Assembly (NCBI GenBank): GCA_031256395.1
Contig: JAIRQQ010000026.1
Location: forward strand, 1 to 41,546
Direction: 5' to 3'
Source: Nitrososphaerota archaeon
GTDB lineage: Archaea; Thermoproteota; Bathyarchaeia; Bathyarchaeales; Bathycorpusculaceae
Length of the DNA stretch: 41,546 nucleotides
Position 1 is the first letter of the stretch. Every line of letters starts with the position of its first letter. This document shows positions 5,097 to 29,387 of the stretch, piece by piece. The position numbers and the translations under genes are program-made. The notes below the pieces were generated by a model. That model did no database searches, had not been told where the DNA came from, and saw only the letters and a list, made by a program, of their open reading frames with translations.

Positions 5097-6854
5097 TTAA
5101 CGGCTAAAGACATGCCTTTTACGCAAGTATAGCAAAGTAATTGACAACAGTGTTGTAATAGCAACAAACAGTGCCACTACAGCAACGCCTATCCAAGCTA
5201 AGCCGAACATTACTGAGTCATCAGAAGCAGACGGGGTTGGTGTTGGTGAGGTGGTTTGTGATGGCAAAACGCTTGATAAATCAGAACGATCCAATGAATT
5301 ATTTGATGATAATGTTGTTTGGACAGGAGATGATGATGTAAGCATAGAAGTTGACGAGTCAACAGTTGTTATTTGTGTGTTATTTGGGCCACTTTCAATG
5401 TCATCAGCATATGAATTATTCGAAACCTTATTCTTACAGTTACAAGACGCTTTTGGCACACAACAACATAAATGGCGATCACAACAAGCTTTACAGGAGT
5501 TTTTAGTACAACAGCAATCACACTTACAGCAACAAGGTGCTTTTGGCACACAACAACAATGTTGCGGTGTCTTCTCGGTATTGGCATAAACTATAGTCAC
5601 ATGACTACCCGATTCTAAATCAATAGTCACCGTACCAGACGCCAAATCCACCGAATAACTACCACTGGGAGCATCCACAATAATATTAGAAATATCCCAA
5701 CCCGCCAAAGGCAACTCAGTAACAAAATAAGTACCAGGCGCCAAATCACCACTATTCCAAATACCACCATCAGACAACGTAAAGAACCCAGGAGGCACAA
5801 CAGAAGTAACGAAATCAAAGACAGCCGAAGAACCAGCAGGACAAGTCGACTTAACAACACTAATAGAACCAAACAAAGGCGCCTCCTCCTCAACATTAAC
5901 AAAAACAACAGTTACATGATTATTAGCTTGCAGGTTGATAGTTGCTGTACCGGTTACCAAATCCACAGTAGATCCCCCATTTGGATCATTCACAATAATA
6001 CTTGAAAGACTCCAACCCGCGACAGGTAATTCGGTGATATAGTAGGTTCCAGGTAACAAGTTTCCACTATTCCAGGGTATGGAGGTATCAGTTAGTGTGA
6101 AAGTTCCAATTGGAGCGGTTGTGATGAAGGTAAATGGCGTTGAAGATCCAGAGGGAACCGTTACTTTAGCGACATTGATTGATGATACAACAGCAGCCCT
6201 TTCAGTTATATTATTAGGGTTAATGTTGACAGTTTTGTCGCCAGTTCCAGGTGACGTTACTCTTGCTTGGAAAACGCCATTCCCGTGAGAGGCACCTTGA
6301 CCTTGAGGAACTATACCTCCAGAAGCGATAGGGTCACCAGTGGCCGCTAAATGGCCGCCGTATACAACGTAAACTGGTTGTGTGTCATCAGTTATTGTAA
6401 AGGTTACATTCCATCTTTGATATCCATCGTTGTAGCCAAGAAAGTTAACGGTGTCAATTTTGGCTCCCTCCGCGTTGAATCCATCCATGTTACCTGTTAA
6501 GGCATGGTCAAACGGTGGTGGAGTCATATTGATTCCATCTTGATAAAAAGTTGTATCCCAAGGTTCTATACAGGTAAAGCCATAAGCATCAGAAGTGTTA
6601 AGGGCAAGTTCTACTATAAACCATAGCGTCTGCCCTTCTGTAACGCCGTCAATTGTTACTCTAAAAGGAACTGTTTCGCCTTCAGTGTAACCCTTGGGAT
6701 TACCAGGCACCCAATTGCGGACCGACCCATCAGGATCCCAGACCTCATGAAACTTTATACAATTTCCAGCAGGTTCACCTAAAACGATTGCGGTAACTAT
6801 TGGACTTAGAAGTATTGTTAAACACAATAGAGACACTATTAAGAATTTTCTCAA
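5097..6854 (-). CDS. Membrane-anchored surface protein with two beta repeats and a cysteine cluster
   Basis: A 585-residue exported protein of unknown function. Residues 1-27 form a signal peptide. Residues 28-215 are a beta-rich domain I do not recognise. Residues 223-323 and 328-428 are two related repeats, each with a GTYYITELPVAGW-like motif, as in prealbumin-like (SpaA/collagen-binding-B-like) folds. Residues 433-473 hold 18 cysteines, including two CCCVPKA copies. A Ser/Thr/Pro linker (about 478-545) leads to one membrane helix (about 549-577) and a basic tail, so most of the protein should lie outside the cell. The start is TTG with AGGTGA 7 bases upstream. Metal or sulfur binding by the cysteines is inference. 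It stands alone, convergent with the cbi operon and downstream of the two operator copies at 7.6 and 8.0 kb. Confidence 0.8.
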   Translation of the reverse strand: MRKFLIVSLLCLTILLSPIVTAIVLGEPAGNCIKFHEVWDPDGSVRNWVPGNPKGYTEGETVPFRVTIDGVTEGQTLWFIVELALNTSDAYGFTCIEPWDTTFYQDGINMTPPPFDHALTGNMDGFNAEGAKIDTVNFLGYNDGYQRWNVTFTITDDTQPVYVVYGGHLAATGDPIASGGIVPQGQGASHGNGVFQARVTSPGTGDKTVNINPNNITERAAVVSSINVAKVTVPSGSSTPFTFITTAPIGTFTLTDTSIPWNSGNLLPGTYYITELPVAGWSLSSIIVNDPNGGSTVDLVTGTATINLQANNHVTVVFVNVEEEAPLFGSISVVKSTCPAGSSAVFDFVTSVVPPGFFTLSDGGIWNSGDLAPGTYFVTELPLAGWDISNIIVDAPSGSYSVDLASGTVTIDLESGSHVTIVYANTEKTPQHCCCVPKAPCCCKCDCCCTKNSCKACCDRHLCCCVPKASCNCKNKVSNNSYADDIESGPNNTQITTVDSSTSMLTSSSPVQTTLSSNNSLDRSDLSSVLPSQTTSPTPTPSASDDSVMFGLAWIGVAVVALFVAITTLLSITLLYLRKRHVFSR

Positions 6855-8161: not shown

Positions 8162-9493
8162 TCACCAATATTTCACATGCCTTACTGCATTGAGTATATC
8201 TTCAATAAGAGTTAGAACACCATTAAAACCCATTAAAGGACGATTTGTCAGGGTAACTCTTTCATGGTAGGGAAAAGTTATAGGGATAAATTGGGGCGGA
8301 CTTGGAAGTAGTAAAGAAATATTTTTTTCAATACCGCTACCTAAGAGTAAGCTGGGTGTTGTTTTTCTAAGATAATCCATTAACTCATACTGATCAGGGT
8401 TAACAAGTACAGGCGCATTTAGCAGATTACGAGATAAATATGCTTTAATAGATTCAGAGTTTTTGGGGCCTGATTCTTTAATTCCCACAACAACCGGTAA
8501 CATGCCCAAGTATTCATAGAGAAAAGTTGTCAGTGCATAAACTTGGGAGGAATCACCAAAAACAGCAAAGGGCATACCTCTAAGACTACTGGTAAAAGAA
8601 GATACTCGGGCAAGAGCTGGATAACATTTCTTTCGAACACGACTAGATTCAAGAGTTATAGTTTCACTGGAGATATCAAAAAAGTCGGCAACTGCTTTAA
8701 ACCATGCTTCAGAGGCAGATAGACCGTAGGGTGCCTGAAGATTTAAATCGATATGGGGAATGCCACACTTATTTTCTAGATAAGAAGCAATTTTGTCACC
8801 GTATTCTTCGTTGAGAACTAGATTAAGTTCAGCCTGACTAGCTCTTTGCAGATTAGATATAGATTCGCCTGCACAAATAACAGATACTGTGTGGATACCC
8901 AGAAGTTTTAGCATCCGCTTAATTTCGGCGAGGTCATTTTCCCAGTTATAATGAAAAATGGTACTGCCAATAATGTTAACGGTACGAGAAATTTTTTGAT
9001 TACGTTTAATTAATATGTGATCCAGAATTTTAATGACCGCATCCTGAAATCCAGAGGCATATGTTCCAGTAAAGCCGGTACTGTCGATGGCTACAGATAG
9101 GGTTTTAATGTTTGCGTTTTGGATGATTTGAGTTAGGTCATCACCGATAATGGAGGTACCTGAATGATTGATGACCCCTATGAGTCCGTGTTTGTTTTGT
9201 TCGAGCTGTTTTAGGGCTTGGGTAACTTTGGGTTCACTCCCATATACGAAATCGGTTTCATCTATGTAGGTGCAAGGGATTCTTGGTTGGCCAAAATAAA
9301 AATCAGCAAAATAGTTGACATCAACAGATTGGGGATGTGAGGCCATCAGGCTTGACATGTATGCAGGATAGGTCTTACAGCCTATGGGACCGTTTAGAAG
9401 TGTACAGGCTTCTTGAATGCCTTCAAAGGCAGCTATGGCGCCTATGAGTGAGTCTGGTCTATGGGAAGCTTTTGAGGAATTATTCATCATCAT
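8162..9493 (-). CDS. Nitrogenase-like component 1, NifK-like subunit
   Basis: A 443-residue nitrogenase-superfamily component 1 protein. Residues 14-39 align without gaps to the start of the NifD-like half of the upstream fusion: DSLIGA against CSLTGA, and NGPIGC (Cys39) against SPQGC. Next come PCTYIDETDFVYG (Cys74) and SGTSIIGDD near 111-119. At the three classical P-cluster cysteine positions it thus has Asp14, Cys39 and Ser111. DPOR subunit BchB also uses an Asp as a cluster ligand, though at a different position. The ATG overlaps the fusion gene's stop by 14 bases, so translation is coupled. It probably pairs with that NifD domain around a [4Fe-4S] cluster. Substrate unknown; a tetrapyrrole is inferred from context. 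Confidence 0.85.
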   Translation of the reverse strand: MMMNNSSKASHRPDSLIGAIAAFEGIQEACTLLNGPIGCKTYPAYMSSLMASHPQSVDVNYFADFYFGQPRIPCTYIDETDFVYGSEPKVTQALKQLEQNKHGLIGVINHSGTSIIGDDLTQIIQNANIKTLSVAIDSTGFTGTYASGFQDAVIKILDHILIKRNQKISRTVNIIGSTIFHYNWENDLAEIKRMLKLLGIHTVSVICAGESISNLQRASQAELNLVLNEEYGDKIASYLENKCGIPHIDLNLQAPYGLSASEAWFKAVADFFDISSETITLESSRVRKKCYPALARVSSFTSSLRGMPFAVFGDSSQVYALTTFLYEYLGMLPVVVGIKESGPKNSESIKAYLSRNLLNAPVLVNPDQYELMDYLRKTTPSLLLGSGIEKNISLLLPSPPQFIPITFPYHERVTLTNRPLMGFNGVLTLIEDILNAVRHVKYW

Positions 9494-11642
9494 ATCGCCA
9501 GCCTTCGATAAAGGGGATTTTTAATTTTAAGCAAAGGGCTTTAGCATAGTCTAAACCAATGTTAAAACCATAGGGAGGAAGTACAGGAAAAGAGACACAG
9601 GGAACAGTGGTTATTAGAGGGCGGGCGGATAAAACGAAATCGGGGTGATTCAAACGTATGGCTTCTTCTATGTAGTCTGTTGTATAGTTTGCTTCAGGTT
9701 TAGGCAGGGCTCTTTCTTCGGGGGCAAATATGTTAAAGGCGTTGATGTGTTTTACTTCCACCTCTAAAGCGGTTAGGGTGGAGTGGAGCCATTCGATGTT
9801 AGCTCCGTTTGAGTTGATTAGGGCTTTTTTTCCTGTAAAATGGGGTTTTAATTGTTCGATCTCCTTTTTGTAGTTTGTTTGGGTTTCTGTTATGAGTTTT
9901 TCTGCTAAGGCTTCTTTGCCAAATTGTTGTGCGATTATACGAGTAAATTCGGCGGTTTGTTCAAATCCGATGGGCACAGGGGTTTGGAGTGTTTGGGTTC
10001 CAAAGTTCTTATCTAGAAATGCGCAGAGGGCATCGGTGGTGGGTCCGTTTGCTACAGGCAAATTAATTTTTGCTTTTTTAAAGTTTTTTATTTGGTCTAT
10101 GGTGGTTTGTCTGATGTAGCGGCAGTTTATTTTTATGCCCAAAGCAGTTAGGATGTGGTGTATTGTTTGGAAGTTTGGGTTAGCGGTGGTAGCGAGGTTT
10201 TGTTCGCCGATAAGGTTTATGGTGTCATTGGTTGGGTTGATAGTTTTATCTATGAATTGTTCGGCGATTAACTGGCAGGCAGTAAGCATACCTGAGTAAA
10301 AGTCGCCGCCCATTACGCCGTCGGAGGGAATGTGGAGTATTTTTTGGTTATCGGTGTTTAATTTTGATATAAGTGAGTTAATGTCATCTCCAATTAGTCC
10401 TGCAGTGCAGGAGGTTATTAGAAAAATCGGTTGGGTGGGAAATTTTGTTTTGATGTAGATTAAGGTGTCTTCTATGTTTTTTGTGCCGCCAAATATCACG
10501 TCAGTTTCTTGCATATTTGTACAGAGAAGATTGGGAAGATCCAGAGGGTATAAGTCGGGAGGGGCTTTTTGGTGTATACAGTAGCTGATGTAGGCGCAGC
10601 CTTGGGGGGAATCCATAAGAGCGGTTGCGTCTTGAATTTGATTTATGATGTTGTAAGCGCCAGTGAGTGAGCAGCCATATATGGGTATGCGTTCTTTTGG
10701 AGTCGGGGTTTGAATGTTTGGTTTGTTTGGAATGATGTTTTTAGAGTTAGTTGGGATTTGGTTTGTTGTTTGTTTTGGGGGGTTATTGTTTTGGGGGGTT
10801 TTGGGAAGTTGGGGAGGGGTTGTTTGGGGTTTTGTGTTGTAGCAGAATTCATAGATGAAGGCTTCGAGTTCTTTGTCTGAGAGAGGGGTTGGTATTACAG
10901 GGTTTGAGTGTTGTTCGATGTGGTTGGCGATTTCTGAGTAGATATTGGCTAGTTCAGTGTTGGGTGCAAATTCCATGATGGTTTTAGAGTTCAGTTCTGC
11001 TTGGGGAATAAGTTCACTTCGTGGGATAGCGGCGATTAGTTGGGTGCCAATTTTTTTAGCGAATTCTTCTAGCACTTGGCGTTCATTGTTTGTTCCTCGT
11101 TGGTTGCCTATTATGCCGCCGAGTTTTCCATGTGTGGATGTGAATCTTTGTAAGCCTTTTGCTATGTTGTTGGCGGCATAGATGGAGGCTATTTCACCTG
11201 ATGATACGATGTATATTTCGTCGGCGTAGCCATCACGCATTGGAACAGCAAAACCACCACAGACAACATCACCTAAGACGTCGAAAAAGACGTAATCAAA
11301 TTGGTTGGTGTCTAGGCCTTGGTCTTTTAGGAGTTGGAGTGTTTGAATTATTCCTCTGCCAGCACAGCCTACGCCGGGTTCAGGGCCTCCTGCTTCGATG
11401 CATTTTACTTGGTTATAGCCAGTTAGCATCACTGTATCAAGAGAGACTGTGCCGGTGCGGTTTAGTTGTTCAAGTACGGTTGTTTGGGTAAATCCTCCTA
11501 GGAGCAGACGTGTTGAGTCGTGTTTAGGGTCGCAGCCTATTTGGAGGATTTTTTTACCCTTCAACGACAGTGCGGCGATAACATTTGAGATGGTTGTGGA
11601 TTTGCCTATGCCGCCTTTGCCATAAAATGCAATACTTTTCAA
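9480..11642 (-). CDS. Fused nitrogenase-like Fe protein (NifH) and NifD-like subunit
   Basis: A 720-residue fusion. Residues 1-260 are a NifH/BchL/CfbC-type ATPase: P-loop GKGGIGKS (8-15), CDPKHDST, and the bridging [4Fe-4S] cysteines Cys93 (GVGCAGRG) and Cys128 (DVVCGG). Residues 265-318 are a Pro/Thr/Asn/Gln linker. Residues 319-720 are NifD-like, with Cys324 (YGCSLTGA), Cys349 (SPQGC) and Cys412 (SCTAGLIGDD) at the classical cluster positions. The FeMo-cofactor cysteine is replaced: the aligned stretch reads KINLPVANG, with Ala near 531. The start is TTG 7 bases after GGAGG, overlapping the btuD stop. Fe protein and component 1 normally must separate, so the covalent link is unusual. Nitrogen fixation is unlikely; reduction of a tetrapyrrole is the working idea. 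CfbCD (F430 synthesis) is the nearest alternative. Confidence 0.88.
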   Translation of the reverse strand: MKSIAFYGKGGIGKSTTISNVIAALSLKGKKILQIGCDPKHDSTRLLLGGFTQTTVLEQLNRTGTVSLDTVMLTGYNQVKCIEAGGPEPGVGCAGRGIIQTLQLLKDQGLDTNQFDYVFFDVLGDVVCGGFAVPMRDGYADEIYIVSSGEIASIYAANNIAKGLQRFTSTHGKLGGIIGNQRGTNNERQVLEEFAKKIGTQLIAAIPRSELIPQAELNSKTIMEFAPNTELANIYSEIANHIEQHSNPVIPTPLSDKELEAFIYEFCYNTKPQTTPPQLPKTPQNNNPPKQTTNQIPTNSKNIIPNKPNIQTPTPKERIPIYGCSLTGAYNIINQIQDATALMDSPQGCAYISYCIHQKAPPDLYPLDLPNLLCTNMQETDVIFGGTKNIEDTLIYIKTKFPTQPIFLITSCTAGLIGDDINSLISKLNTDNQKILHIPSDGVMGGDFYSGMLTACQLIAEQFIDKTINPTNDTINLIGEQNLATTANPNFQTIHHILTALGIKINCRYIRQTTIDQIKNFKKAKINLPVANGPTTDALCAFLDKNFGTQTLQTPVPIGFEQTAEFTRIIAQQFGKEALAEKLITETQTNYKKEIEQLKPHFTGKKALINSNGANIEWLHSTLTALEVEVKHINAFNIFAPEERALPKPEANYTTDYIEEAIRLNHPDFVLSARPLITTVPCVSFPVLPPYGFNIGLDYAKALCLKLKIPFIEGWRYDDE

Positions 11643-12985: not shown

Positions 12986-14074
12986 CTATGAAGCATCAAC
13001 TTTTTTCTTTCTTCGCATAAGATAGAGGAAAAACGGTCCGCCGCAAACTGCAGTTATTACACCAACAGGCAACTCGGAGGGGGCGATTACAATTCGTGCT
13101 AGAGTGTCACACAGCACAAGAAAAGTAGCACCCATTAAAGCGGATGCGATTATTAGAATTCGGTGGTCAGGAGAAAAGAGCAAGCGGGCCAAGTGGGGAA
13201 TGATTAAACCTACAAAAGCAATTAATCCACCAATTGAAACAGCCGCCGCAGTTACAAACGCACTAGCTACTAGGAGAATTTTCTTCAGTCTTTCAAGATC
13301 TACACCTAAATGGGTAGATTCAGATTCACCAAGTGCGAGCAGATTTAGATCACGAGAAAACATATAGATGACCACAGAACCCACGACTATAAAGAGCAAA
13401 GCATTCCAAAAATCAGACCACTCTGTATATGAGAAGCTACCCATAAGCCAGAAGGAAGTCTGACGGAATTGATCAGGAAACAAAGAATGATAAGCGTTAA
13501 CAATTGCACCAAACAAAATACTAACAGCAATACCTGAGAGAAGAAGAGTTTGGACTGGAACTTTATTACCTACTCTTGAGAGGGCATATACTCCAAACAC
13601 TGTTAACAAACAGCCTACGAACGCAAAAAGCGGCATCGTGTTTATGCCCAATACAGTTATACTGGCGCCGAGAATAACAGAGGTAGTGGCACCCAAAGCG
13701 GCTCCAGATGAGGCTCCGATTGTATAGGGGTCAGCCATTGGATTTCTAAACAGACCCTGATAGGCCGCACCTGCAATAGCTAAGCCAGCGCCCACAAGCG
13801 CGGCGCATAAAGCCCTTGGAAAGCGCACTTGAAGAATTAGGGCGGTTTCAAGGGGTGAAACTGGAAAATCAACCAATCGGTTAAGTCCAGGGATATTGGC
13901 GAAAAACACACCAAGTATGTTAGAAACGGGAATGTTGACATAACCTACACCTATGGAGAATATGATAGAACATATCAATAGCCCAAAAAGCCCCAGAGCA
14001 ATAAAACGCCAGTTTTTGGCTTTTTGAGGCGAATTTAATTTTTTTACAATCACGGCTTTAAGGTTATTCAACAT
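12986..14074 (-). CDS. btuC: Corrinoid ABC importer permease (BtuC/FecCD family)
   Basis: A 362-residue multi-span permease of the FecCD family. It has an N-terminal helix at about 24-46, the RFPRALCAALVGAGLAIAG and GLFRNPMADPYTIGASSGAALG segments (roughly 83-130), and the coupling region GLIAFVGLIIPHLAR with HRIL near the C-terminus. It forms the membrane channel of the importer with the binding protein upstream and the ATPase downstream. The stop lies 9 bases before the btuD ATG. A GGAG site precedes the start. Confidence 0.88.
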   Translation of the reverse strand: MLNNLKAVIVKKLNSPQKAKNWRFIALGLFGLLICSIIFSIGVGYVNIPVSNILGVFFANIPGLNRLVDFPVSPLETALILQVRFPRALCAALVGAGLAIAGAAYQGLFRNPMADPYTIGASSGAALGATTSVILGASITVLGINTMPLFAFVGCLLTVFGVYALSRVGNKVPVQTLLLSGIAVSILFGAIVNAYHSLFPDQFRQTSFWLMGSFSYTEWSDFWNALLFIVVGSVVIYMFSRDLNLLALGESESTHLGVDLERLKKILLVASAFVTAAAVSIGGLIAFVGLIIPHLARLLFSPDHRILIIASALMGATFLVLCDTLARIVIAPSELPVGVITAVCGGPFFLYLMRRKKKVDAS

Positions 14075-14110: not shown

Positions 14111-15061
14111 TTAGGTACTGTCAAAGATTTCCGGATGGAATATTTTGGAAAGCTCATCTAAAGCAGCGATAGATCTTGGCCCGGGTCGTGAAAAGGTGCT
14201 GTCGTGACCTATGTTATAGATTTGGGTGTTTGCAACTGCAGTAATGCTTGACCACCCGGGACGAGTCTTAAAACTGTTAAGGGCGGTATAGCTTGAGAGG
14301 ATTATATCAGGATTTTTAGCGATAACAGCTTCAGAGCCAATCACCGGATAAGCTGTCGCAGCATCATCAAAAATACTTGTACCACCAGCCAAGGCAACAA
14401 GGTCACTTATATAACTGGTTGGACCCACAGACATTAAGGGATCAGCAGATATTTCGACGTAAACTTTGGGCTTATCAGTTATGCCTGCAACTTTATTTGT
14501 TATATTATCAATGCTGGTAGTGAGATCAGCTACTATTGCCGCGGCCTCATCAGCATGGCCGGTTGCTTTACCGACGATAACAAGGTTACCCAATACATCC
14601 TTGATAGTTTGAGGGTTTAACACTATTACAGTATAGCCCATATTGCGCAGTTTGCTTGCCGCTTCATCACTTGCACCGCCTCCACTTGCAATAATCAAGT
14701 CAGGTTCTAGTGCAATTATGGGCTCTATTGCCGGCTGCCAGTAACTGCCAATAGAACTCATTTTACCCTCTGCAATCCATTCGGCAAAATCGTAGGGGTA
14801 ATCACAAAAATCTGTAACACCGACAACTTGATCACCCGCACCAACAGCAAACAAAACCTCAGTAATACTGGGTGCTAAAGAGACAATACGCTGAGGAACT
14901 GAGCTAATAGTTACTTCAGTGCCATCATCATCAATTACAGTTACGGATTTACCATCACTACCGTTGTTTTGCGGGTCGGCATATAGAAATACCACAGCCG
15001 CTGAAACTACAATCACTGCAAGAAGTATTGCCACAATTAACCATAACTTTGTTTTTTGCAT
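14111..15061 (-). CDS. btuF: Corrinoid-type periplasmic-binding protein (BtuF family)
   Basis: A 316-residue binding protein with an N-terminal membrane helix or lipid-free anchor (about residues 5-25), then a class III binding fold. Key segments are RIVSLAPSITEVLFAVGAGDQVVGV with FCDYP, and SSIGSYWQPAIEPIIALEPDLIIAS, as in BtuF-type vitamin B12 binding proteins. It would capture a corrinoid outside the membrane and pass it to BtuC/BtuD. The ATG at 15061 follows GGAGAGG by 4 bases; the TTG at 15073 is less likely. It is the first gene of a five-gene operon under the operator at 15106-15145. A related ligand (haem, F430 or siderophore) cannot be excluded. Confidence 0.85.
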   Translation of the reverse strand: MQKTKLWLIVAILLAVIVVSAAVVFLYADPQNNGSDGKSVTVIDDDGTEVTISSVPQRIVSLAPSITEVLFAVGAGDQVVGVTDFCDYPYDFAEWIAEGKMSSIGSYWQPAIEPIIALEPDLIIASGGGASDEAASKLRNMGYTVIVLNPQTIKDVLGNLVIVGKATGHADEAAAIVADLTTSIDNITNKVAGITDKPKVYVEISADPLMSVGPTSYISDLVALAGGTSIFDDAATAYPVIGSEAVIAKNPDIILSSYTALNSFKTRPGWSSITAVANTQIYNIGHDSTFSRPGPRSIAALDELSKIFHPEIFDST

Positions 15062-15105
15062 AAGCCTCTCCAACTTTAAGTTTAAACGCTAAAACAACTA
15101 AAAGC

Positions 15106-15145
15106 CTAATAAACCTTAAGTTAATCTCCATTAATCTTTAGTTGA
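15106..15145 (-). promoter_or_regulatory. Shared operator/promoter element, copy E, before btuF
   Basis: Minus strand: TCAACTAAAG, ATTAA, ATTAACTTAA and GGTTTATTAG in the common 40-bp register. The middle repeat is the least conserved of the seven. The btuF ATG lies about 45 bases downstream, which fits a TATA-driven short leader. Confidence 0.75.
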
Positions 15146-15160
15146 TCAACCAAAGTTTCG

Positions 15161-15212
15161 CCACAACCAACAACAACGACTACAAACAAAAAACAACAAC
15201 CACTAAACACAA
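15161..15212 (-). terminator. G/U-rich 3' region after the second FecCD permease
   Basis: The minus strand here is T/G-rich with runs such as TTTTTTGTTTG and lies about 40 bases after the permease stop at 15250, just before the next operator. A likely U-rich archaeal terminator. Confidence 0.4.
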
Positions 15213-15249
15213 ATTCATAATAAAGGGATAGGTAGAGGCGCATTGAGTT

Positions 15250-19042: not shown

Positions 19043-19789
19043 TCACACACTTGATCTCTTTAAAGCGACCATACAGCCAATAAAGAAGGCCACTCCAAAG
19101 ATCAAAAGACCCACAAAGGATAACCAAGGAAAAGACAAACCCAATACAGTTGCACGTAAAAGATTAGCGGAGTGGGTTAGCGGCAGGAAATACAATACAG
19201 CCTTAGCTACAGCAGGTAATTGGTCCAGTGAAAAAAAGGTACCGCACAGAAAAGTCATAGGTAAAATCACCAGAGTAGTAAAGTTGCCCATTCCATGGTG
19301 TGTATGGACAACTAAGGCTATGAGTACACCAAATAAAGAAAACACAAAGCAGGATAGCAGTAGCATCAAAAAGAATATTGGACTAATCAGTAACGTTGGT
19401 GCAAGAATCAAACCTACCAAGTATATGGCAATAGCACTAATGGAGCCTCTCACTACACCAATCAGAGATTTACCTATAATAATCGAATGTGAACGTACAG
19501 GAGACATCAAGAGTTCATCAAAGCTTTTATAGAAAAATTTGTCCACATGCAGTTTTGATGCCGCACCATTAAAGCTAGTGGAAAACGCGGTTAATCCAAC
19601 AATACCTGGAATAACAAAGGAAAGATAATCAAGATCACCCACGTTTACCCCTCGTCCCAAACCATAGCCAAAAGCGACCAAATAAAGCAAGGGAAGCACA
19701 AGACTTGTAGCTATAGTAGCTTTCCAATGACGACGCATATTGCGTAAGTCGACCCAGAAAACGGAATAAATATCACCTAAGGTAGTCAT
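19043..19789 (-). CDS. ABC-2 type exporter permease
   Basis: A 248-residue six-helix permease of the ABC-2 (NodJ/DrrB) family, with the family blocks FSTSFNGAASKLHVDKFFYK, SFDELLMSPVRSHSIIIGKSL and FLCGTFFSLDQLPAVAKAVLYFLPL split over residues 54-196. Its ATG overlaps the ATPase stop. It would export a substrate, or integrate something into the membrane, with the ATPase upstream. It is the last gene of the operon that also carries chlID, cobN and cbiZ, so a tetrapyrrole- or chelator-related substrate is possible but unproven. Confidence 0.83.
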   Translation of the reverse strand: MTTLGDIYSVFWVDLRNMRRHWKATIATSLVLPLLYLVAFGYGLGRGVNVGDLDYLSFVIPGIVGLTAFSTSFNGAASKLHVDKFFYKSFDELLMSPVRSHSIIIGKSLIGVVRGSISAIAIYLVGLILAPTLLISPIFFLMLLLSCFVFSLFGVLIALVVHTHHGMGNFTTLVILPMTFLCGTFFSLDQLPAVAKAVLYFLPLTHSANLLRATVLGLSFPWLSFVGLLIFGVAFFIGCMVALKRSSV

Positions 19790-20652
19790 TATGGGTCACC
19801 TACTTTTTCGCCTGTTTGCTCAATAAAGACATCTTCCAAATTTGATTCACGGATAATCACTGTTTTCACTTCTGAGGGTAAACGTTTAACATAATTGGTT
19901 GCTACCTCACGGTTAGCAAAAAACTGGTAATGTGTATCTTTGTTATCTACAAGAGTTTCAACAACTATGGATCCGACTTTTTCACGAAGATTAGCAGGAT
20001 CATCCACTGCAATTAATTGCCCATGATGCATAATTCCAACGCGGTCACACAAAACCTCCGCTTCCTCGATGTAGTGTGTGGTGAGGAAAATTGTGGTGCC
20101 ATCTTTGTTTAAGCGGCGTACCAAGTCCCACAAACGACGTCTAGCCTGAGCATCTAACCCAACAGTGGGTTCATCTAAAAATAACAATTTAGGTTCATGA
20201 AGAAGACTGCAAACAATAGATGCTTTCTTTTTCATTCCACCGGAGAGCATGTCAATCATTTTATCAGCATACTCGGTAAGCTCGACATACTCTAACAGCT
20301 CAGTAATACGTTGCTTGCGCTTAGAGGAACTCAAGTGCTGTATACGTGCATGAAATTCCATGTTTTCTCGAACAGTCAAATCGCGGTCCAAACTCAAATG
20401 TTGCTGAACAACGCCAATCACTTTTTTTACTTTGTCAATTTCATCGCGTATATCATATCCGCCAACGGAGACGTACCCCGAAGTTGGACGGGTTAGAGTT
20501 GTTAAAACGCGAATAGTTGTTGTCTTCCCCGCACCATTGGGCCCTAAAAACCCAAAGATCTCTCCAGCACGGACATTCAAATTCAAATTATTTATCGCCT
20601 TAACAGAACCATAATTCTTGCAGAGATTTTCGGTATAGATATAGTCTTGCAA
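19789..20652 (-). CDS. ABC-2 type exporter ATPase
   Basis: A 287-residue ATPase of the NodI/DrrA/CcmA type: Walker A GPNGAGKTTTIRVL, Q-loop VVQQHLSLDRDLT, signature MLSGGMKKK, Walker B LLFLDEPTVGLD, switch LTTHYIEEAE and a short C-terminal domain. The start is TTG after GAGGGTA, 9 bases after the cbiZ stop. It powers the permease that overlaps its end. Confidence 0.87.
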   Translation of the reverse strand: MQDYIYTENLCKNYGSVKAINNLNLNVRAGEIFGFLGPNGAGKTTTIRVLTTLTRPTSGYVSVGGYDIRDEIDKVKKVIGVVQQHLSLDRDLTVRENMEFHARIQHLSSSKRKQRITELLEYVELTEYADKMIDMLSGGMKKKASIVCSLLHEPKLLFLDEPTVGLDAQARRRLWDLVRRLNKDGTTIFLTTHYIEEAEVLCDRVGIMHHGQLIAVDDPANLREKVGSIVVETLVDNKDTHYQFFANREVATNYVKRLPSEVKTVIIRESNLEDVFIEQTGEKVGDP

Positions 20653-20661
20653 ACACTACCC

Positions 20662-21429
20662 TCACATATTGTCAAATTTTTTCAATGCTTCTGTGACAGC
20701 TGTCTTGGCAGTAAAACCAATCAACTCACCCATCTTGGTATGACCACCAGTATGCTTTACCACCACATCTGGGTTTACACCGGAAACAACAATCATACTA
20801 TCGGTTCCCGTACCAGTAGCTTGCACTTGAGGCAAAAATGTACTCATATAACCAAGATCCTGCAATGCCGCAGACTTAGCCTCAGTAGCAGTCATAATCG
20901 CTCTAGCCATAGCACCACAAGTCAAAGTCGCATTAGTTAACAAAATAATATTTATGGTACCGGAGGACAACTGCATCTGAGTTTTATTTTCAACCCAGTT
21001 ACCAGCATCTACACCCATACGCAAAGCATTATCACGAGCGCCACCAGTGGCAATGCAACAAACATGGAAATTGCCATAAGTCTTTTCGCATACTGCCACA
21101 CACTCCATATTTACACCAGTACTTAGAAAAATAAAGTCGCTATGACAAAGACCCAAAGTGATAGGTAAATCCTGGGTAAATTGGTCATAACTCTGCAGAG
21201 TCATATGGCGCTTTGACAAAGGATCGGGAACATACACATTGCCTACGTTGCGGACTTTTTGTAGTCCATCCATGGTTGATAGTACAGTACGTTGTTCATT
21301 AAAAGAGACAAGCGCCAAGTTGAGCAATACATCTTCATATTGCTGATAAACAACTCGAGCGGTTGCTTCTTTGAATTGAAGATCTATAGGGGTTTCTTTT
21401 ATACCTTTAATACATTTACTCATTTTCAT
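20662..21429 (-). CDS. cbiZ: Adenosylcobinamide amidohydrolase CbiZ
   Basis: A 255-residue CbiZ. Diagnostic segments are IATGGARDNALRMGVDAGNW, GTINIILLTNATLTCGAMAR, ATEAKSAALQDLG, and ATGTGTDSMIVVSG with TGGHTKMGELIG. CbiZ removes the aminopropanol arm of adenosylcobinamide (or pseudocobalamin), giving cobyric acid that re-enters the archaeal pathway. It therefore marks salvage of imported corrinoids. Of several early ATGs, the one at 21429 follows GGAG by 6 bases; the frame is open back to 21459, inside the end of cobN. It sits between cobN and the ABC-2 exporter. Confidence 0.93.
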   Translation of the reverse strand: MKMSKCIKGIKETPIDLQFKEATARVVYQQYEDVLLNLALVSFNEQRTVLSTMDGLQKVRNVGNVYVPDPLSKRHMTLQSYDQFTQDLPITLGLCHSDFIFLSTGVNMECVAVCEKTYGNFHVCCIATGGARDNALRMGVDAGNWVENKTQMQLSSGTINIILLTNATLTCGAMARAIMTATEAKSAALQDLGYMSTFLPQVQATGTGTDSMIVVSGVNPDVVVKHTGGHTKMGELIGFTAKTAVTEALKKFDNM

Positions 21430-21448
21430 TTTTTTCTCCATTGTTTTG

Positions 21449-24400
21449 TTACTTTTCATTAGTGTCTTCGAGCAGACCCTCTACATCCAAGTAGAGCTTT
21501 TGCAGATCCTTCTTCATCCCATCAGAAGCCCGCCACATACCACGATCAATAGCCTCCAAGAACCGCTCAACCATATTCTGCAAAGCATAAGGATTCACAT
21601 CTTTAAGCCACTGCTGCATACCACTATCAAAAACATACTTCTGAGCCAACGACTCATACATCCAATCCTCAACAACCTCAACCGTAGCATCCCAACCAAA
21701 AACAAAATCCACATTCCTATACAAATCAGCAGCACCCTGATACCCATGCCGCTTCATACCCTCGATGTATTTTGGGTTAAGAAGCCGGGAACGGAAAACC
21801 AGGCAGGTTTCCTCTGCAGTGCTTCGAACTTTTACTCTATTAGGATCAGAGCTATCGCCGCAATACGAACGGGGTGCCTTACCGCCTACGACTTTAATGG
21901 CAGTTATCATACCACCGTGTGAGTCATACCAGTCATCACCGTCCAAGATGTCATATTCACGGGAATCCTGATTTTTGACGGTGACATCGATTTTTTTTAG
22001 GCACCGCTTAAACTGCTCAGGCGTCTGAACACCGTAAGTTTTACGGGTGTAGGCATAACTGCCCCAGTTAATGTAGATGTCGCTTAGATCAGTTTGGTCT
22101 TTCCAGTTTTTAGAATCTATAACTTCACTTACACCACACCCATATCCTCCTGGTTGGTCACCAAAGATGCGATAACATGCTTCTTCTCGTGCTTTTATGG
22201 TGTCAATACCTTGGTCGGTTTTTTCGGTGACATCGATTTCTACATGTTTGGCTATAAAGTTTTGATCATGCGGCTCGTTTAGTCCAGCAACTAATCCAAC
22301 AGCGGTATCAAGAAGATTAACTACAACGGGAAAGGTGTCTCGGAATAATCCGCTGATGCGCATAGTTACATCGATACGAGGGCGCTTAAGCATCTCCAGA
22401 GGAATAGCTTCTACGCCAATAACTCGGCCACTAGAGCGTTCCCAAACAGGTTTGACACCCAATAAATAGAGAATCTCGGCGATGTCATCACCTTTGGTTT
22501 TCATGGTATCGGTTGCCCAGATAACAATGCCCACCGATTCAGGGTATTTACCCTCATCTTTTAGATAACGTTCAAGCAACACCTCGGCCATAGAGACGCC
22601 AACTTCCCAAGAAGCCGCTGTTGGAACCATACGCGGGTCAAGAGAGTAAAAATTTCGTCCAGTCGGTAAAATATCGGCCATGCCGCGGGTTATAGAGCCG
22701 GAGGGTCCGGGGGGTATGTAGTTGCCTTGGCAACCAGAGATGGTGTAGGTTAGTTCATCAGTTGTTGATGCAAGTGCAGGAACAAGAAAACCACTGATAT
22801 AGCAGAGGCAATGGTCTATTTGGGGGTTACTTGCGCCTAATACTTCTTTTGTTAGTGCAGGGATTTGTTCTTTGTTGAAATTAGCTGAGTGATATTTTTG
22901 GATAAGTTCAAGGGAAAGAGCACTAATCTCATTTAGATGATCACCATTAGTTTTACCATCACCCCCCAACCTGCCGCGATACGCCAAAAGAACCTCATAA
23001 TCAAAACCCAACAACTCCGCAATAGACTGCCGAAGAGAAGGCACATCACCATTATTTAGGCGTGTTAATGTGACAAGGAATTTGTCTAGGCGCAAGTCTT
23101 TGGGTGCTTCGCCTAAAATATGAAGTCCATCTCGGATTTGGGCATCTGATAGCTCGTTAATGTATGCATGGAGTTGTTCTAGAAAATCATCAAATGCCGT
23201 AAAGGCAGTATCTTTAGTGAGGTTTAGGTCTTTGTCAAGTTTAGCATCAACTACGGTTTCCCAGATTAGATTACGCAAAACAGGTAATTTGTCAGGATCA
23301 ACGGTTTTAGCATGATAGTATTCTTGAAGCTGAACCTCAATTTTTGCAAGCTCATCATAAGAATCAGCATTATGCATAACAGGTACCAAATATTCGATTA
23401 TACAGCAGTAGCTTCGGCGCTTAGCTTGAGTACCTTCGCCAGGATTAGTTATAGTATAGGGGTAAATGTTTGGCAAATCAGAAATCGCTATGTCAGGAGA
23501 ACACGTACCAGACAACCCCACAGATTTGCCGGGTAGCCATTCTAATGAACCGTGAGTGCCTATGTGCAAAATAACATGAGCACCAAAAACATCACGAATC
23601 CAACGATAATAAGCAAGATAATGATGCGGCATAGACAAATCAGGACTATGATAAATACTCGCCGAAGTCTCTAAATACCCACGCGGAGGCTGCAAACCAA
23701 CAAAAACATTACCGGTTTGTATACCAGCAACCAAAAACTCACCATCATAGGTGAAGAGTTTCCCAGGACGCTCCCCCCAATCCTTCTCCATCTTAACAGC
23801 CACCTCAGAAGACAACCCGCCAAACCACACATCATACTGCTCAAGAGAAACCCTATCCAAAGCACGCTCACTCAATTCTTGGGGGCTTGCCCATCGACGA
23901 TCATTAGTCAATCCAGCAACAATAGCATCCATAAGTTTTTGGCTACTCTCAGGCAACTCACCCAAAACATACCCTTGCGCCTTTAGGTCTTGAAGGATAT
24001 TCATAACCGAAGCCGAAGAATCTAACCCAAATGCATGGCCAATCGTATCATTTCTGGGTGGATAATTGTGAAAAATAATAGCCACCTTCTTTTGGCTATT
24101 AGATAATCTCCGCAACCGGCCCCAATTCAGAGCCAAACTAACCGTTTTTCTAGTTCGCTCTGCAATAACTTCAAAGGTAATCAATCGTGCACCCGTTGTG
24201 GGATTAGTTTGACGGCAATTCATAGCGGCAACGGGTACAGTAATTAAAGCGCCGTCAAATTCGGGCATAGCAACATTAGCAGGAATATCCATAATGTTTA
24301 GGCCCTGCATGCTATCACGCCACTCCTCAAAAGTATTGCAAGAGAGTATAGCTTTGATAATTGGAACTCCTAGTTTTTTTAGGGTAGCGGTTGCGTCGAC

Positions 24401-25192
24401 ACCAGAGAGACAAGTTGAGAGTGAAAAAGAAATCAAGCTGATAACAACATCTACACGCGGCTGACCGTCCTCTTTTAAGAAGTAATTATCAACCACCCAA
24501 TCTAATCCGTTCATACCTAGCTTTTCATTTTTTGAGCCGCTGAAAAATACGGGTAGTACATTAGCATTTTGAGCTTCAATCTCGGTGATTATATCATCGA
24601 TAAAATTTGTTGTTTCGCCCTGCCAGTTACTTTGATGGAACCATAGCCCCACAGTTAGGCGGTTAGTATCAATTTTTTTTGTCAGATATTCCTCTAATGT
24701 AGGAACAGTATCAAAGCTTGGGTGGTAGATTCCTTCCCAGAGGGGTTTAGTTGGAGCTTCAAATTCATAATTGGTGCCTGTGAATCGGTTTGCAAGGTAG
24801 TAGAAGAGGTTTTCAAAGTTTTTTTTGCCGCCATAGTTTAGGTAGAAAAAGATTTTTTGCTTGTCTTCGGTTTGTACAGTTGTGAATTTAGTTTGTTCTT
24901 TGCCTCCAAAGAATGGGGTAGAAATCATGAGGGGTATTTTTAGAGGTTTTAAGGCTTCAACCAGTTTATCAAAGTCGGGCAAATCGCCCATCAAATGTAC
25001 GATGACTACGTGGGCGGTTTTAGAAAAGTTGATAAAAGCATCTAAAGTGCCGAAATCTCGAAAATCGCCACCTGAACGTAGAGATAGTTCAAGGGTATTT
25101 GGATTTTTTTTGTTTATTGTTTTTGCGGCTGATATTGCGGGGAGGATATCGGTTGGGATTGTGGTTGCAATGGCTACTTTGAGTGGTTTCAT
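21449..25192 (-). CDS. cobN: CobN-type cobaltochelatase / magnesium-chelatase H subunit
   Basis: A 1247-residue protein of the CobN/ChlH/BchH family, full length. It carries family blocks such as LHIGTHGSLEWLPGKSVGLS, IYPYTITNPGEGTQAKRRSY and RIFGDQPGGYGCGVSEVID. CobN/BchH proteins bind the tetrapyrrole and receive the metal with help from an AAA+/VWA partner, here probably the ChlI-ChlD fusion at 27307. In an organism with the early-cobalt cbi route a CobNST-type chelatase is not expected for B12. It may insert a metal into another tetrapyrrole or act in corrinoid remodelling; this is inference. Its ATG overlaps the upstream ATPase gene by 4 bases, and cbiZ overlaps or follows it. Confidence 0.92.
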   Translation of the reverse strand: MKPLKVAIATTIPTDILPAISAAKTINKKNPNTLELSLRSGGDFRDFGTLDAFINFSKTAHVVIVHLMGDLPDFDKLVEALKPLKIPLMISTPFFGGKEQTKFTTVQTEDKQKIFFYLNYGGKKNFENLFYYLANRFTGTNYEFEAPTKPLWEGIYHPSFDTVPTLEEYLTKKIDTNRLTVGLWFHQSNWQGETTNFIDDIITEIEAQNANVLPVFFSGSKNEKLGMNGLDWVVDNYFLKEDGQPRVDVVISLISFSLSTCLSGVDATATLKKLGVPIIKAILSCNTFEEWRDSMQGLNIMDIPANVAMPEFDGALITVPVAAMNCRQTNPTTGARLITFEVIAERTRKTVSLALNWGRLRRLSNSQKKVAIIFHNYPPRNDTIGHAFGLDSSASVMNILQDLKAQGYVLGELPESSQKLMDAIVAGLTNDRRWASPQELSERALDRVSLEQYDVWFGGLSSEVAVKMEKDWGERPGKLFTYDGEFLVAGIQTGNVFVGLQPPRGYLETSASIYHSPDLSMPHHYLAYYRWIRDVFGAHVILHIGTHGSLEWLPGKSVGLSGTCSPDIAISDLPNIYPYTITNPGEGTQAKRRSYCCIIEYLVPVMHNADSYDELAKIEVQLQEYYHAKTVDPDKLPVLRNLIWETVVDAKLDKDLNLTKDTAFTAFDDFLEQLHAYINELSDAQIRDGLHILGEAPKDLRLDKFLVTLTRLNNGDVPSLRQSIAELLGFDYEVLLAYRGRLGGDGKTNGDHLNEISALSLELIQKYHSANFNKEQIPALTKEVLGASNPQIDHCLCYISGFLVPALASTTDELTYTISGCQGNYIPPGPSGSITRGMADILPTGRNFYSLDPRMVPTAASWEVGVSMAEVLLERYLKDEGKYPESVGIVIWATDTMKTKGDDIAEILYLLGVKPVWERSSGRVIGVEAIPLEMLKRPRIDVTMRISGLFRDTFPVVVNLLDTAVGLVAGLNEPHDQNFIAKHVEIDVTEKTDQGIDTIKAREEACYRIFGDQPGGYGCGVSEVIDSKNWKDQTDLSDIYINWGSYAYTRKTYGVQTPEQFKRCLKKIDVTVKNQDSREYDILDGDDWYDSHGGMITAIKVVGGKAPRSYCGDSSDPNRVKVRSTAEETCLVFRSRLLNPKYIEGMKRHGYQGAADLYRNVDFVFGWDATVEVVEDWMYESLAQKYVFDSGMQQWLKDVNPYALQNMVERFLEAIDRGMWRASDGMKKDLQKLYLDVEGLLEDTNEK

Positions 25193-26022
25193 GGTTTCAA
25201 CTCGGGGGGTTTTGTTTCAAATAAGACCGATGCGCGAGAAGTAAAATCACCAAAATCATCAACAAGGGGGGTAACTACGGGTCGGCCCATAACTGAAGCG
25301 GAGACGTCAGCGCAAATTCCATAAACGGTTTTAATGTTTTGAGAAGTTATCACTTCTTCAGGACGGCCCATAGCAAAAACGTAGCCTTTTTTGAGCATGA
25401 TCATTCGATCAGAAAAGCGACTAGCTAGATTTAGATCATGTAGAGTTACAACAACGGAACGGCCGCCGCTTTGAGCAAGACCTCGAAGAATGCAGAGGAT
25501 TTCAAGTTGGTGGCGAATATCTAAAGAACTTGTAGGTTCATCAAGCAACAAAATTTCAGGTTGTTGTGCAAGAGCCCGTGCAATAATGACTTTTTGTTGC
25601 TCACCTCCGCTAAGTTCAGAAAAATGTCGCAGAGCTAAATGTCCAATACCTAAAAAGTCTAACATTAAAGCGACAATTTCACTATCACGCTCGCCTACGC
25701 TCCAATGGATATAGGGTTTTCGTCCCATCATCACCACATCAAATACCGTAAAAGGAAAAGCGCTAACAGATGTCTGAGGGACATAGCCCATTATCATAGA
25801 TAATTCCTTAACAGATAGTTTGCCACTATCGACGCCATTTATAAGTACACTATTTTGTTTAGGTTTCAAAATGCGGTTGATGCATTTCAACAAAGTACTT
25901 TTTCCTGAGCCGTTAGGACCAACAATAGTTACTAATTCGCCTAAGCCAACGTTGAATTCTACATTATTTAGAATTGGAACGCCGGCATAGTTAAATGAAA
26001 GATTACTTATACTCATTTTCAA
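25189..26022 (-). CDS. FecE/BtuD-type metal-chelate ABC ATPase
   Basis: A 277-residue ATPase: Walker A GPNGSGKSTLLKCI, Q-loop YVPQTSVSAFPF, signature LSGGEQQK, Walker B ILLLDEPTSSLD, switch TLHDLNLASRF. It lacks the long C-terminal domain of the BtuD at 11639. The probable start is TTG at 26022, overlapping the permease stop; ATG at 26016 is an alternative. It partners the permease just upstream and perhaps also the ATPase-less permease at 15250. It lies between that permease and cobN in one operon. Confidence 0.88.
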   Translation of the reverse strand: MKMSISNLSFNYAGVPILNNVEFNVGLGELVTIVGPNGSGKSTLLKCINRILKPKQNSVLINGVDSGKLSVKELSMIMGYVPQTSVSAFPFTVFDVVMMGRKPYIHWSVGERDSEIVALMLDFLGIGHLALRHFSELSGGEQQKVIIARALAQQPEILLLDEPTSSLDIRHQLEILCILRGLAQSGGRSVVVTLHDLNLASRFSDRMIMLKKGYVFAMGRPEEVITSQNIKTVYGICADVSASVMGRPVVTPLVDDFGDFTSRASVLFETKPPELKP

Positions 26023-27092
26023 TTGAAACTACGTCTCCTTTTAGATATTAACAGATATATGAAAAATGGAACTCCAAGCAAGGCAGTTACAATGCCTACT
26101 GGAAGTTCAGTGGGCATTATAATCAGTCGTCCCACTGTATCTGCGGCAAGAAGCATAAAAGCGCCCAAAAGCATGCTGCAAGGTATTAGGTAGCGGTAAT
26201 CATTGCCAATTAACATTCTAGCAATGTGTGGAGCAATCAAATCTACAAAGCCAATGATACCTGTGAAGGCTATTATGCTTGCAGTGGCGATTGTCTCCAA
26301 AACCATGTTAAACGATAGAACCCGTTTAGAATTAACGCCTAAACTAACAGCAACCTCTTCGCCCATGCTTAAGATATTGATATTCCATGCTTGAAACATC
26401 ATTAGTATGACTGTAACTGCAACAATTGGTAAACAAATCAAAATGTTTTGCCAAGATGACGTATAGAGACCGCCCATGAGCCAAAAAACAATGGCTTGAA
26501 CCGCGTTTCGTTCAGGAGAGATATATTGTACTAAGGAAAGCAGAGCAGAGAAAAGAAAACCAACGGCCACTCCAGCCAATATCACTGACTCTGAACCCAT
26601 GCCGCGTATACGTGCAACAAAATAAACGATAACCATAGCCAGTAAACAAAAAACAAAGGCGTTACCGATTACAAGGTATCCACCCAAGGTTGCAATACTT
26701 ATTCCAAAAACTATGGCTAAGGCAGCACCAAATCCTGCCGCGGAAGAAATGCCCAAAACATAAGAGGAAACAAGAGGATTACGCAAAATACCTTGCATCG
26801 TTGCTCCAGCAGCAGCCAAACCAGCCCCTGCTATTATGGCCATAACAATTCGGGGTAAGCGGATAGTCCAAATTATCGTCTCAGCAAGAGCTGAGGGGGG
26901 CGTGATGTTGAGGAAAGGAAAAGTTTTGGAAACTATGACAGACAAAGCTTCAGTTATGCCTGGAGAAGAAGCCCCAAAACTAAGAGAGAACAAAGCCGTG
27001 GCCATTAGGGCTAAAAATAGAGAAATGATGACGAGAATTTTTTTCTTTTTGCCTTTACTGTATAGTTTTTTTAGCTCAGCTGTTGTGGTCAT
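26019..27092 (-). CDS. FecCD-family metal-chelate ABC permease, third set
   Basis: A 357-residue permease with the same architecture and much the same sequence as the one at 15250: IRLPRIVMAIIAGAGLAAAG, GILRNPLVSSYVLGISSAAG, and the FTGIIGFVDLIAPHIAR coupling region. Its ATG overlaps the small upstream gene's stop by 4 bases, and its own stop overlaps the ATPase start. The operon has no binding protein, so the paralogous ones at 16323 and 17723 are the likely partners. Substrate unknown. Confidence 0.86.
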   Translation of the reverse strand: MTTTAELKKLYSKGKKKKILVIISLFLALMATALFSLSFGASSPGITEALSVIVSKTFPFLNITPPSALAETIIWTIRLPRIVMAIIAGAGLAAAGATMQGILRNPLVSSYVLGISSAAGFGAALAIVFGISIATLGGYLVIGNAFVFCLLAMVIVYFVARIRGMGSESVILAGVAVGFLFSALLSLVQYISPERNAVQAIVFWLMGGLYTSSWQNILICLPIVAVTVILMMFQAWNINILSMGEEVAVSLGVNSKRVLSFNMVLETIATASIIAFTGIIGFVDLIAPHIARMLIGNDYRYLIPCSMLLGAFMLLAADTVGRLIIMPTELPVGIVTALLGVPFFIYLLISKRRRSFN

Positions 27093-27292
27093 TGATACTC
27101 AAACAGCCCTACTGAGGTTAATTCCATAACTTTGGTCAGAGGTGTTTGAGTTTGGTGTACTGATGCAGGTAAAGAAGATAGATCGAATCGCGCTGAGGAT
27201 TTTGTTACAAAAAAACAGACAGGTATACCATAAGCCAATGCAGACAAGTCTAACGCAGATGTTGCCAAACATAGAGCTGATGGTTTTTTCAA
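27089..27292 (-). CDS. Unrecognised 67-residue protein
   Basis: A small gene with GGAGGT 6 bases before a TTG start, placed 14 bases after chlID and overlapping the next permease by 4 bases. The strong ribosome site and both junctions argue that it is translated. The product starts MKKPSALCLATSALDL, has a weakly hydrophobic stretch (about 5-30) with two cysteines, and a polar C-terminal half. I recognise no family. It may be an accessory factor for the chelatase or importer, or the remnant of a larger protein. Confidence 0.55.
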   Translation of the reverse strand: MKKPSALCLATSALDLSALAYGIPVCFFVTKSSARFDLSSLPASVHQTQTPLTKVMELTSVGLFEYQ

Positions 27293-27306
27293 CTTTTTAC
27301 CTCCAG

Positions 27307-29349: not shown

Positions 29350-29387
29350 TTCCTTATTTTCTACCGGGTAAAGGATAACCAATAAAC

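Follow-up and report, generated by a model that had tools for sequence, protein, structure and literature searches.

A nitrogenase-like enzyme with a fused Fe protein encoded beside a probable corrinoid importer in a bathyarchaeal genome

What does a nitrogenase-like enzyme do when its Fe protein and its NifD-like subunit are made as a single chain, and what do the neighbouring genes suggest about its substrate? The question is raised by a gene pair in a 41,546-nucleotide stretch of DNA from a Nitrososphaerota archaeon of the class Bathyarchaeia (GenBank assembly GCA_031256395.1, contig JAIRQQ010000026.1, positions 1 to 41,546), the whole of which is referred to here as the window. A sequence-only reading had singled out positions 8162-11642 as a unit composed of a NifH-NifD fusion (HD, with domains H and D) and a separate NifK-like subunit (K). 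The operon extends further upstream, to about position 15073, and includes a BtuFCD-type importer that was absent from that reading, as was the loss of the cofactor and P-cluster ligands. Both the importer partner and the ligand loss are more informative on function than the fusion itself. Our preferred reading, to which we assign a probability of about 45%, is that HD and K form a two-component, ATP-driven reductase that would carry [4Fe-4S] clusters only and act on an imported corrinoid or a similar tetrapyrrole.

The fused gene and its predicted clusters

The minus-strand open reading frame (ORF) at 9480-11642 encodes one protein of 720 residues, in which a NifH-type Fe protein is joined through a linker to a NifD/NifE-like domain, each recognized by its Pfam family (Fer4_NifH and Oxidored_nitro; Table 1). 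The sequence-only reading had proposed this join, without giving the strand, and its other structural claims largely held. The K gene overlaps the 3' end of the fused gene by 14 bp, and the fused gene in turn overlaps the upstream ATPase gene by 4 bp. The P-loop, Cys93 and Cys128 of the H domain are invariant in all seven aligned fused proteins, while the linker described as rich in Pro, Thr and Asn is also rich in Gln. The start codon is TTG in nine of ten loci and ATG in the other, with GGAG close upstream in all ten. The claim of a complete NifD-like domain was borne out in part: the domain is present and continues to a Gly-Phe motif alignable with the ends of other subunits, but its C-terminus is divergent and the Pfam match ends at position 348 of 399. 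A truncated D domain, considered on account of this early end, was dropped, as the alignments reveal a C-terminus that is divergent but present.

An assembly error joining two genes, which might have been betrayed by a stop codon in the linker at about 10690-10850, was ruled out. There is no stop in 10686-10838, and H and D of this family, where both lie on one contig, are fused in 10/10 loci (G000, G078-G082, G091, G104, G128 and G215), each with a stop-free linker; this count excludes three loci broken by a contig end (G094, G092 and a second G091 contig). The search of archaeal genomes for the same fusion with a NifK-like gene thus recovered it repeatedly, both in metagenome-assembled genomes (MAGs) that stem from several samples and in two Bathyarchaeia that are more distant. 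Relative to eight other fused proteins (the near-identical G082 excluded), identity is 69-94% for H, 45-86% for D and 12.8-68.6% for the linker, whose length is similar elsewhere in the alignment and longer in G104. In six pairs with finite dS, some of them near saturation, dN/dS was 0.038-0.075 for H, 0.107-0.199 for D and 0.186-0.544 for the linker; in a seventh pair (G128/G215) H and D were saturated and the linker gave 0.975. These comparisons indicate a single reading frame with two constrained domains and a loosely constrained linker. Because the linker diverges to this extent, it would serve as a flexible leash rather than as a conserved contact.

Alignment against characterized relatives revealed which cluster ligands remain. 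Three cluster cysteines are retained in D in 11/11 rows. At the P-cluster positions of K, the first is cysteine (11/11), the second aspartate (11/11) and the third serine (12/12). The column of the iron-molybdenum cofactor (FeMo-co) cysteine, occupied by cysteine in the reference NifD, VnfD, NifE and MarD rows, holds cysteine in none of 11 D rows and in one of 12 K rows (G128). The remaining four cysteines and one aspartate would suffice for an interface [4Fe-4S] cluster and would not suffice for the known P-cluster. NifB gave no match at E 1e-5 in the window's genome (1,989,047 bases in 135 contigs, 90.02% complete), in a search that detected 4/14 controls, two of them above cut-off. At the same threshold the only PF00148 matches in this genome are the fused gene and the K gene, and PF00142 is matched by the fused gene and by one weak 28-bit hit.

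H scored 367 bits with the TIGR01287 nifH model (cut-off 394), and its best Protein Data Bank (PDB) match was a nitrogenase iron protein (6nzj, E 1.2e-94). D scored higher with the nifE model (118.5 bits) than with nifD (101), and the nifH, nifD and nifK cut-offs were all missed. Also missed were the cut-offs for CfbC (351.6 against 402) and for the CfbD model TIGR03282 (31 and 34.6 against 268.4). The best BchL and BchB scores were 228.9 against 345 and 137.7 against 490, respectively, and no BchL, BchN, BchB, BchX or BchZ equivalog score was reached. Because the cofactor cysteine and two P-cluster cysteines are gone and NifB was not found, this system, as judged from its sequence, is no ordinary nitrogenase.

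The earlier suggestion to place each part in a superfamily tree succeeded at the level of the family and fell short at depth. Maximum-likelihood analysis gathered the fused H (10 rows), D (11 rows) and K (11 rows) each into a single clade with 100/100 support, the partial K of G092 having been omitted from the component-1 tree. H clusters with three NifH sequences at 88/90 on a branch that is not firm, and D falls together with a component-1 subunit of G443/G487 at 87/83; SporoD, SporoK, BchN and BchB form long branches in the component-1 tree. Approximately unbiased (AU) tests do not fix the deep placement. They rejected neither D with CfbD (p 0.19) nor D with NifD/E (p 0.42), neither K with BchB (p 0.30) nor K with MarK (p 0.25), and not H with CfbC (0.053), BchL (0.12) or Sporomusa H (0.056). 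Only the grouping of H with the H of G443/G487 was rejected (p 0.010).

Other nitrogenase-like genes were also encountered. Unfused sets of a nitrogenase-like H and two component-1 subunits occur in G487 (L074, 2293-9771) and G443 (L071, 4118-7795); the G487 set is divergent from adjoining cbi-like genes, making it a second nitrogenase-like set beside corrin genes, from a different clade. A bathyarchaeon of the same genus as the window (G101; L076, 8857-14713) carries a nifH-nifB-nifD-nifK-homocitrate-synthase-like cluster that retains the cofactor and P-cluster cysteines, with nifH at 433 bits and two nitrogenase alpha models above cut-off and nifB below it (326 against 344). Comparably high-scoring PF00148 pairs occur in G087, G088, G096, G126 and G130, which are thus candidate N2 fixers in Bathyarchaeia.

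The importer operon and its corrinoid context

Directly upstream of the fused gene lie genes for a BtuD-like ABC ATPase, a BtuC-like permease and a BtuF-like substrate-binding protein (Table 1), and the same BtuF-BtuC-BtuD order directly precedes HD-K in 8/8 same-genus loci with a complete fused gene. The best NCBIfam model for the ATPase is a 'corrinoid ABC transporter ATPase' (324 bits, cut-off 537) and that for the permease is a BtuC (318 bits, cut-off 461). The closest PDB match of the BtuF-like protein is a vitamin B12-binding protein (5ysc, E 4.2e-30), followed by 4m7o, labelled iron-binding (E 5.6e-27), and then by further B12 binders. The C-terminal extension of the ATPase, searched alone as residues 262-448, gave no NCBIfam match at 1e-10, nor any PDB match with an E value below 0.35.

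Paralogous importers provide a second line of evidence. Among 32 genomes of the genus, the eight with a complete fused gene carry an ATPase 79-100% identical to that of the window, and a paralogue of 51-73% identity is found in 14/24 genomes without a complete fused gene and in 3/8 with one. The 18 paralogue matches yielded 16 regions that were read, the fragments on G089 contig 219 and G092 contig 135 being left out. Four of the 16 (G095, G098, G099 and G100) lie between cbiMNQO and a divergent regulator, adjoining cbi genes, and another five (G090, G105, G092, G091 and G080) stand beside cbiZ; the ATPases of these paralogous importers are 51-55% identical to that of the window and share its C-terminal extension. 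Since paralogues adjoin corrinoid genes and the BtuF-like protein matches a B12 binder, the BtuFCD partner of the fused enzyme is read as a probable corrinoid importer.

Table 1 Features of the fused-gene operon in the window, listed in order of transcription from the importer genes
Feature	Position	Strand	Evidence and remarks
BtuF-like substrate-binding protein	14111..15073	-	Peripla_BP_2 E 1.3e-35
BtuC-like permease	12986..14074	-	FecCD E 7.6e-96
BtuD-like ABC ATPase with C-terminal extension of about 190 residues	11639..12985	-	PF00005 E 5e-31
NifH-type Fe-protein domain, residues 1-268	10839..11642	-	PF00142 residues 3-266, E 1.1e-103; TTG start
Linker of 51 residues (269-319), Pro/Thr/Asn/Gln-rich	10686..10838	-	no stop codon
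NifD/NifE-like domain, residues 320-720 and stop	9480..10685	-	PF00148 residues 324-672, E 1.6e-60
NifK/NifN-like subunit, 443 residues	8162..9493	-	PF00148 residues 16-437, E 2.2e-74

The window holds further corrin genes, namely cbiE, cbiT, cbiG, cobN and cbiZ, together with cbiL, cbiF, cbiH and cbiMNQO named by eye; the cbi genes stop about 3.2 kb from the K gene. Between them and K, at 5097-6854, lies a gene for a 585-residue surface-type protein in which CCC motifs occur in clusters. Upstream of the importer operon, at 15074-15223, a palindrome like GTTGATCAAC was seen by eye, with changes, in 8/8 fused loci and is a possible operator; a DNA-motif search over the importer promoters returned weak AT-rich matches only. 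A cluster at 19043-29382 encodes a CobN-like chelatase (above the CobN cut-off and barely above that of BchH), a ChlI/D-like protein, BtuCD-like importer parts, CbiZ and an ABC-2 transporter, and much the same cluster is present in G101, which is without the fused gene. A tRNA scan of the window found nothing.

Earlier reports, distribution and known relatives

The architecture has been in print since 2012, also for near-identical MAGs, and what is new here is its tie to a probable corrinoid importer. Dos Santos et al. (2012; PMC3464626) mention, as data not shown, fused nifH/nifE-like and nifN-like genes in some Archaea, Firmicutes and Deltaproteobacteria; by description, their group has the same architecture, with nifH-like and nifE-like parts in one ORF and a separate nifN-like gene. 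The same source reports ABC transporters and lost cofactor ligands in related groups, and its named examples have either three cysteines, all of them in D, or two in D plus a single one in K, as compared with three in D, one in K and an additional aspartate in the present family. A 'fused nifH/nifE' is mentioned in Ca. Methanomassiliicoccus intestinalis, of another archaeal lineage (Borrel et al. 2014; PMC4153887), and matches the present fusion by its label alone. Loh et al. (2021; PMC7886697) noted a 'NifDH homolog' with both Pfam domains in the termite Bathyarchaeia TB1/TB2 and guessed at a role in tetrapyrrole metabolism, in what is, within the accessible part of that paper, one sentence without operon, ligand, transporter or tree analysis. 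The earlier statement that no characterized enzyme has this architecture therefore stands in one respect: a characterized fused NifH-NifD enzyme was not found among the matches listed in the open-access literature, to which our search was largely confined, but the architecture itself was printed in 2012, 2014 and 2021.

Within the class, PF00148 is present in 18/256 genomes, and the complete fused gene occurs in 8/32 genomes of the genus (10/32 when fragments are counted). A scan of genome contigs returned seven loci, all from the same archaeal group (six from Bathycorpusculum, of which two belong to one MAG, and one from a Nitrososphaerota archaeon) and none from Firmicutes or Deltaproteobacteria; a plasmid search gave no fused gene among 60 of 271 records listed, and a scan of viral contigs no relative of the fused system. 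Among named genomes, isolate Lab288P3_bin169 of Ca. Bathycorpusculum hydrogenotrophicum comes closest, with 99% identity over the best segment. Loh et al. (2021; PMC7886697) list the MAGs behind L005-L009 and L011 in their Table 1 as coming from termite guts, and the genus also includes peat-soil, sediment and digester MAGs (PMC10684969). Near-identity to a termite-gut MAG suggests that the genome of the window comes from a termite gut as well. In the 99%-identical relative (L005, 3053-5385) the second binding protein occurs as two separate ORFs, and the permease ORF that goes with it is shorter than in the window. In G215 (L059, 10701-11984) the homology of K to the others stops at 10911, and its ORF continues over an opposite-strand PmbA/TldD-like gene, possibly as the result of a frameshift or a broken gene.

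Comparison with characterized systems places the family among several partial likenesses. DPOR and CfbCD are tetrapyrrole enzymes with [Fe4S4] clusters only (PMC12552129). The present system resembles CfbCD in being archaeal, in its predicted [4Fe-4S]-only composition and possible tetrapyrrole substrate, and in its NifH-like partner, and differs in that CfbC is separate and CfbD acts without a K subunit; the fused H and D each fall into a separate clade, and joint clades with CfbC and CfbD were not rejected. DPOR (BchLNB) likewise has three parts corresponding to H, D and K, and its interface [4Fe-4S] is held by three cysteines of one subunit and an aspartate of the other (PMC3464626). The present residues fit such a predicted cluster, but the BchL, BchN and BchB cut-offs were missed by a wide margin. 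NifHDK and MarHDK share the fold family and Fe-protein motifs but keep the cofactor cysteine and six P-cluster cysteines (in MarD the former is Cys270; PMC12552129), as opposed to the three in D, one in K and no cofactor cysteine found here. By description, isethionate reductase IsrBHDK has a radical-SAM gene immediately upstream of H, where the present operon has genes for an ABC ATPase, a permease and a binding protein. H is a separate protein in isethionate reductase (PMC11423573) and in methylthio-alkane reductase (PMC12552129).

Proposed function and rival explanations

The tethered NifH domain, with its motifs in place, would take electrons from a low-potential carrier and pass them, with ATP hydrolysis, to one [4Fe-4S] cluster between D and K. 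The residues observed suggest that this cluster would be held by three cysteines of D and by one cysteine or aspartate of K. The missing ligands and NifB suggest that electrons would then reach a substrate bound without FeMo-co, and the gene order points to a corrinoid or related tetrapyrrole, delivered by the BtuFCD of the same operon, as the most likely substrate. The reduction might take place at the metal, for instance from Co(II) to Co(I) ahead of adenosylation, or else at the ring; for a scavenged corrinoid, the low-potential step from Co(II) to Co(I) is an attractive proposal, since no other gene of the operon would provide for it. If K binds 1:1, the fusion would fix H:D:K at 1:1:1, with one Fe-protein dimer per (HD-K)2 that would be built from both chains or by pairing across complexes.

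Several results weigh against a corrinoid-reducing function. In G128 and G215, the deepest of the fused loci, BtuFCD does not lie directly upstream: a FecCD-type permease is located some 1.2 kb past K in G128, and 19.9 kb around G215 contained no match to the importer genes of the window. Seven of the 16 paralogue loci (G096, G097, G083, G108, G094, G093 and G104) have no adjacent corrinoid gene, although G083, G108, G093 and G104 lie at or near a contig end. The controls comprised all five matches to the ATPase with 42-44% identity. Two of them lie next to cbiZ and cobN, and the other three are not close to any corrinoid gene; the two corrinoid-adjacent loci match the window's own btuD2-cobN-cbiZ cluster. 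No Rfam family reached its gathering score in the window, and hence no cobalamin riboswitch was found. AlphaFold modelling of HD and K, in each case from seven closely related sequences, was of poor quality (mean pLDDT 44.7 and 43.1), insufficient to reveal a pocket. CbiG is present in 30/32 genomes of the genus, as opposed to 8/32 for the complete fused gene, so the fused enzyme is not required for corrin making. Finally, an unfused relative in Sporomusa sits with a siderophore-type importer.

This last arrangement keeps alive a rival explanation that we consider unlikely yet worth carrying, in which the enzyme reduces an imported ferric siderophore or other metal chelate, its low-potential, ATP-driven electrons freeing the metal once it is in the cytoplasm. 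Sporomusa termitida, an organism from termite gut contents, encodes in a row on its plasmid pSPTER a binding protein, two FecCD permeases, an ATPase, an unfused NifH, two component-1 subunits and a PF00756 esterase, and the top PDB hits for this binding protein are the iron-uptake binder 2why and siderophore binders. Nitrogenase-like genes occur next to ABC transporters elsewhere (Dos Santos et al. 2012; PMC3464626), and the iron-binding label of 4m7o, the second match of the window's own BtuF-like protein, points the same way. The bathyarchaeal importer nevertheless looks corrinoid-type and no esterase is found among the scanned operon genes; moreover, the Sporomusa D and K lie on long separate branches and the Sporomusa K retains none of the three cysteines. 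A superfamily reductase beside a metal-complex importer may, from these gene orders, be a wider theme with differing cargo.

More improbable is a NifEN-like scaffold, in which HD-K would assemble or insert a metallocofactor with metal or ligand supplied by the importer. The higher nifE score of D agrees with it, and a coupling of metal transport to cofactor assembly has been suggested (Dos Santos et al. 2012; PMC3464626), but the genome yielded neither NifB nor another PF00148 protein that could accept the product. A role in de novo corrin synthesis as a substitute for CbiJ, the missing precorrin-6A reductase, drew on the nearby cbi genes and on the absence of CbiJ from all 32 genus genomes (0/32). 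It is largely refuted by the genome distribution given above, by which most of these genomes have cbi genes with neither reductase, and we hold it to be very improbable. Least credible among the readings is that the enzyme is a nitrogenase, or a reductase of methylthio-alkanes or isethionate that bears a cofactor. H is the part closest to these enzymes, in both its PDB match and its grouping with NifH. N2 fixation and cofactor-bearing reductases were rejected on the missing ligands in D and K and on the failure to find NifB; there is, in addition, no second D/K pair, and the nifH, nifD and nifK cut-offs were missed.

With reduction of an imported corrinoid or similar tetrapyrrole as the preferred reading, a broader and more doubtful proposal can be put forward: that the fused system represents a new enzyme class of the superfamily, the intracellular half of an import system, in which a reductase with a leashed Fe protein acts on a corrinoid or other metal chelate arriving through a BtuFCD-type importer, with unfused relatives doing likewise for siderophores. 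If this is true, no nitrogenase-like enzyme for imported metal complexes would, to our knowledge, precede it, nor any characterized one in which the Fe protein is permanently tethered at a 1:1:1 stoichiometry. Release of the Fe protein once electrons have been transferred is regarded as a central step in the mechanism of nitrogenases and their relatives, and it is plausible that a tether alters this cycle. A naturally tethered Fe protein without apparent complex cofactors would thus offer a simple system for testing the need for dissociation. Assigning a function to this group would also fill a gap in the superfamily, and might reveal the way in which scavenged corrinoids are activated or remodelled by anaerobic archaea.

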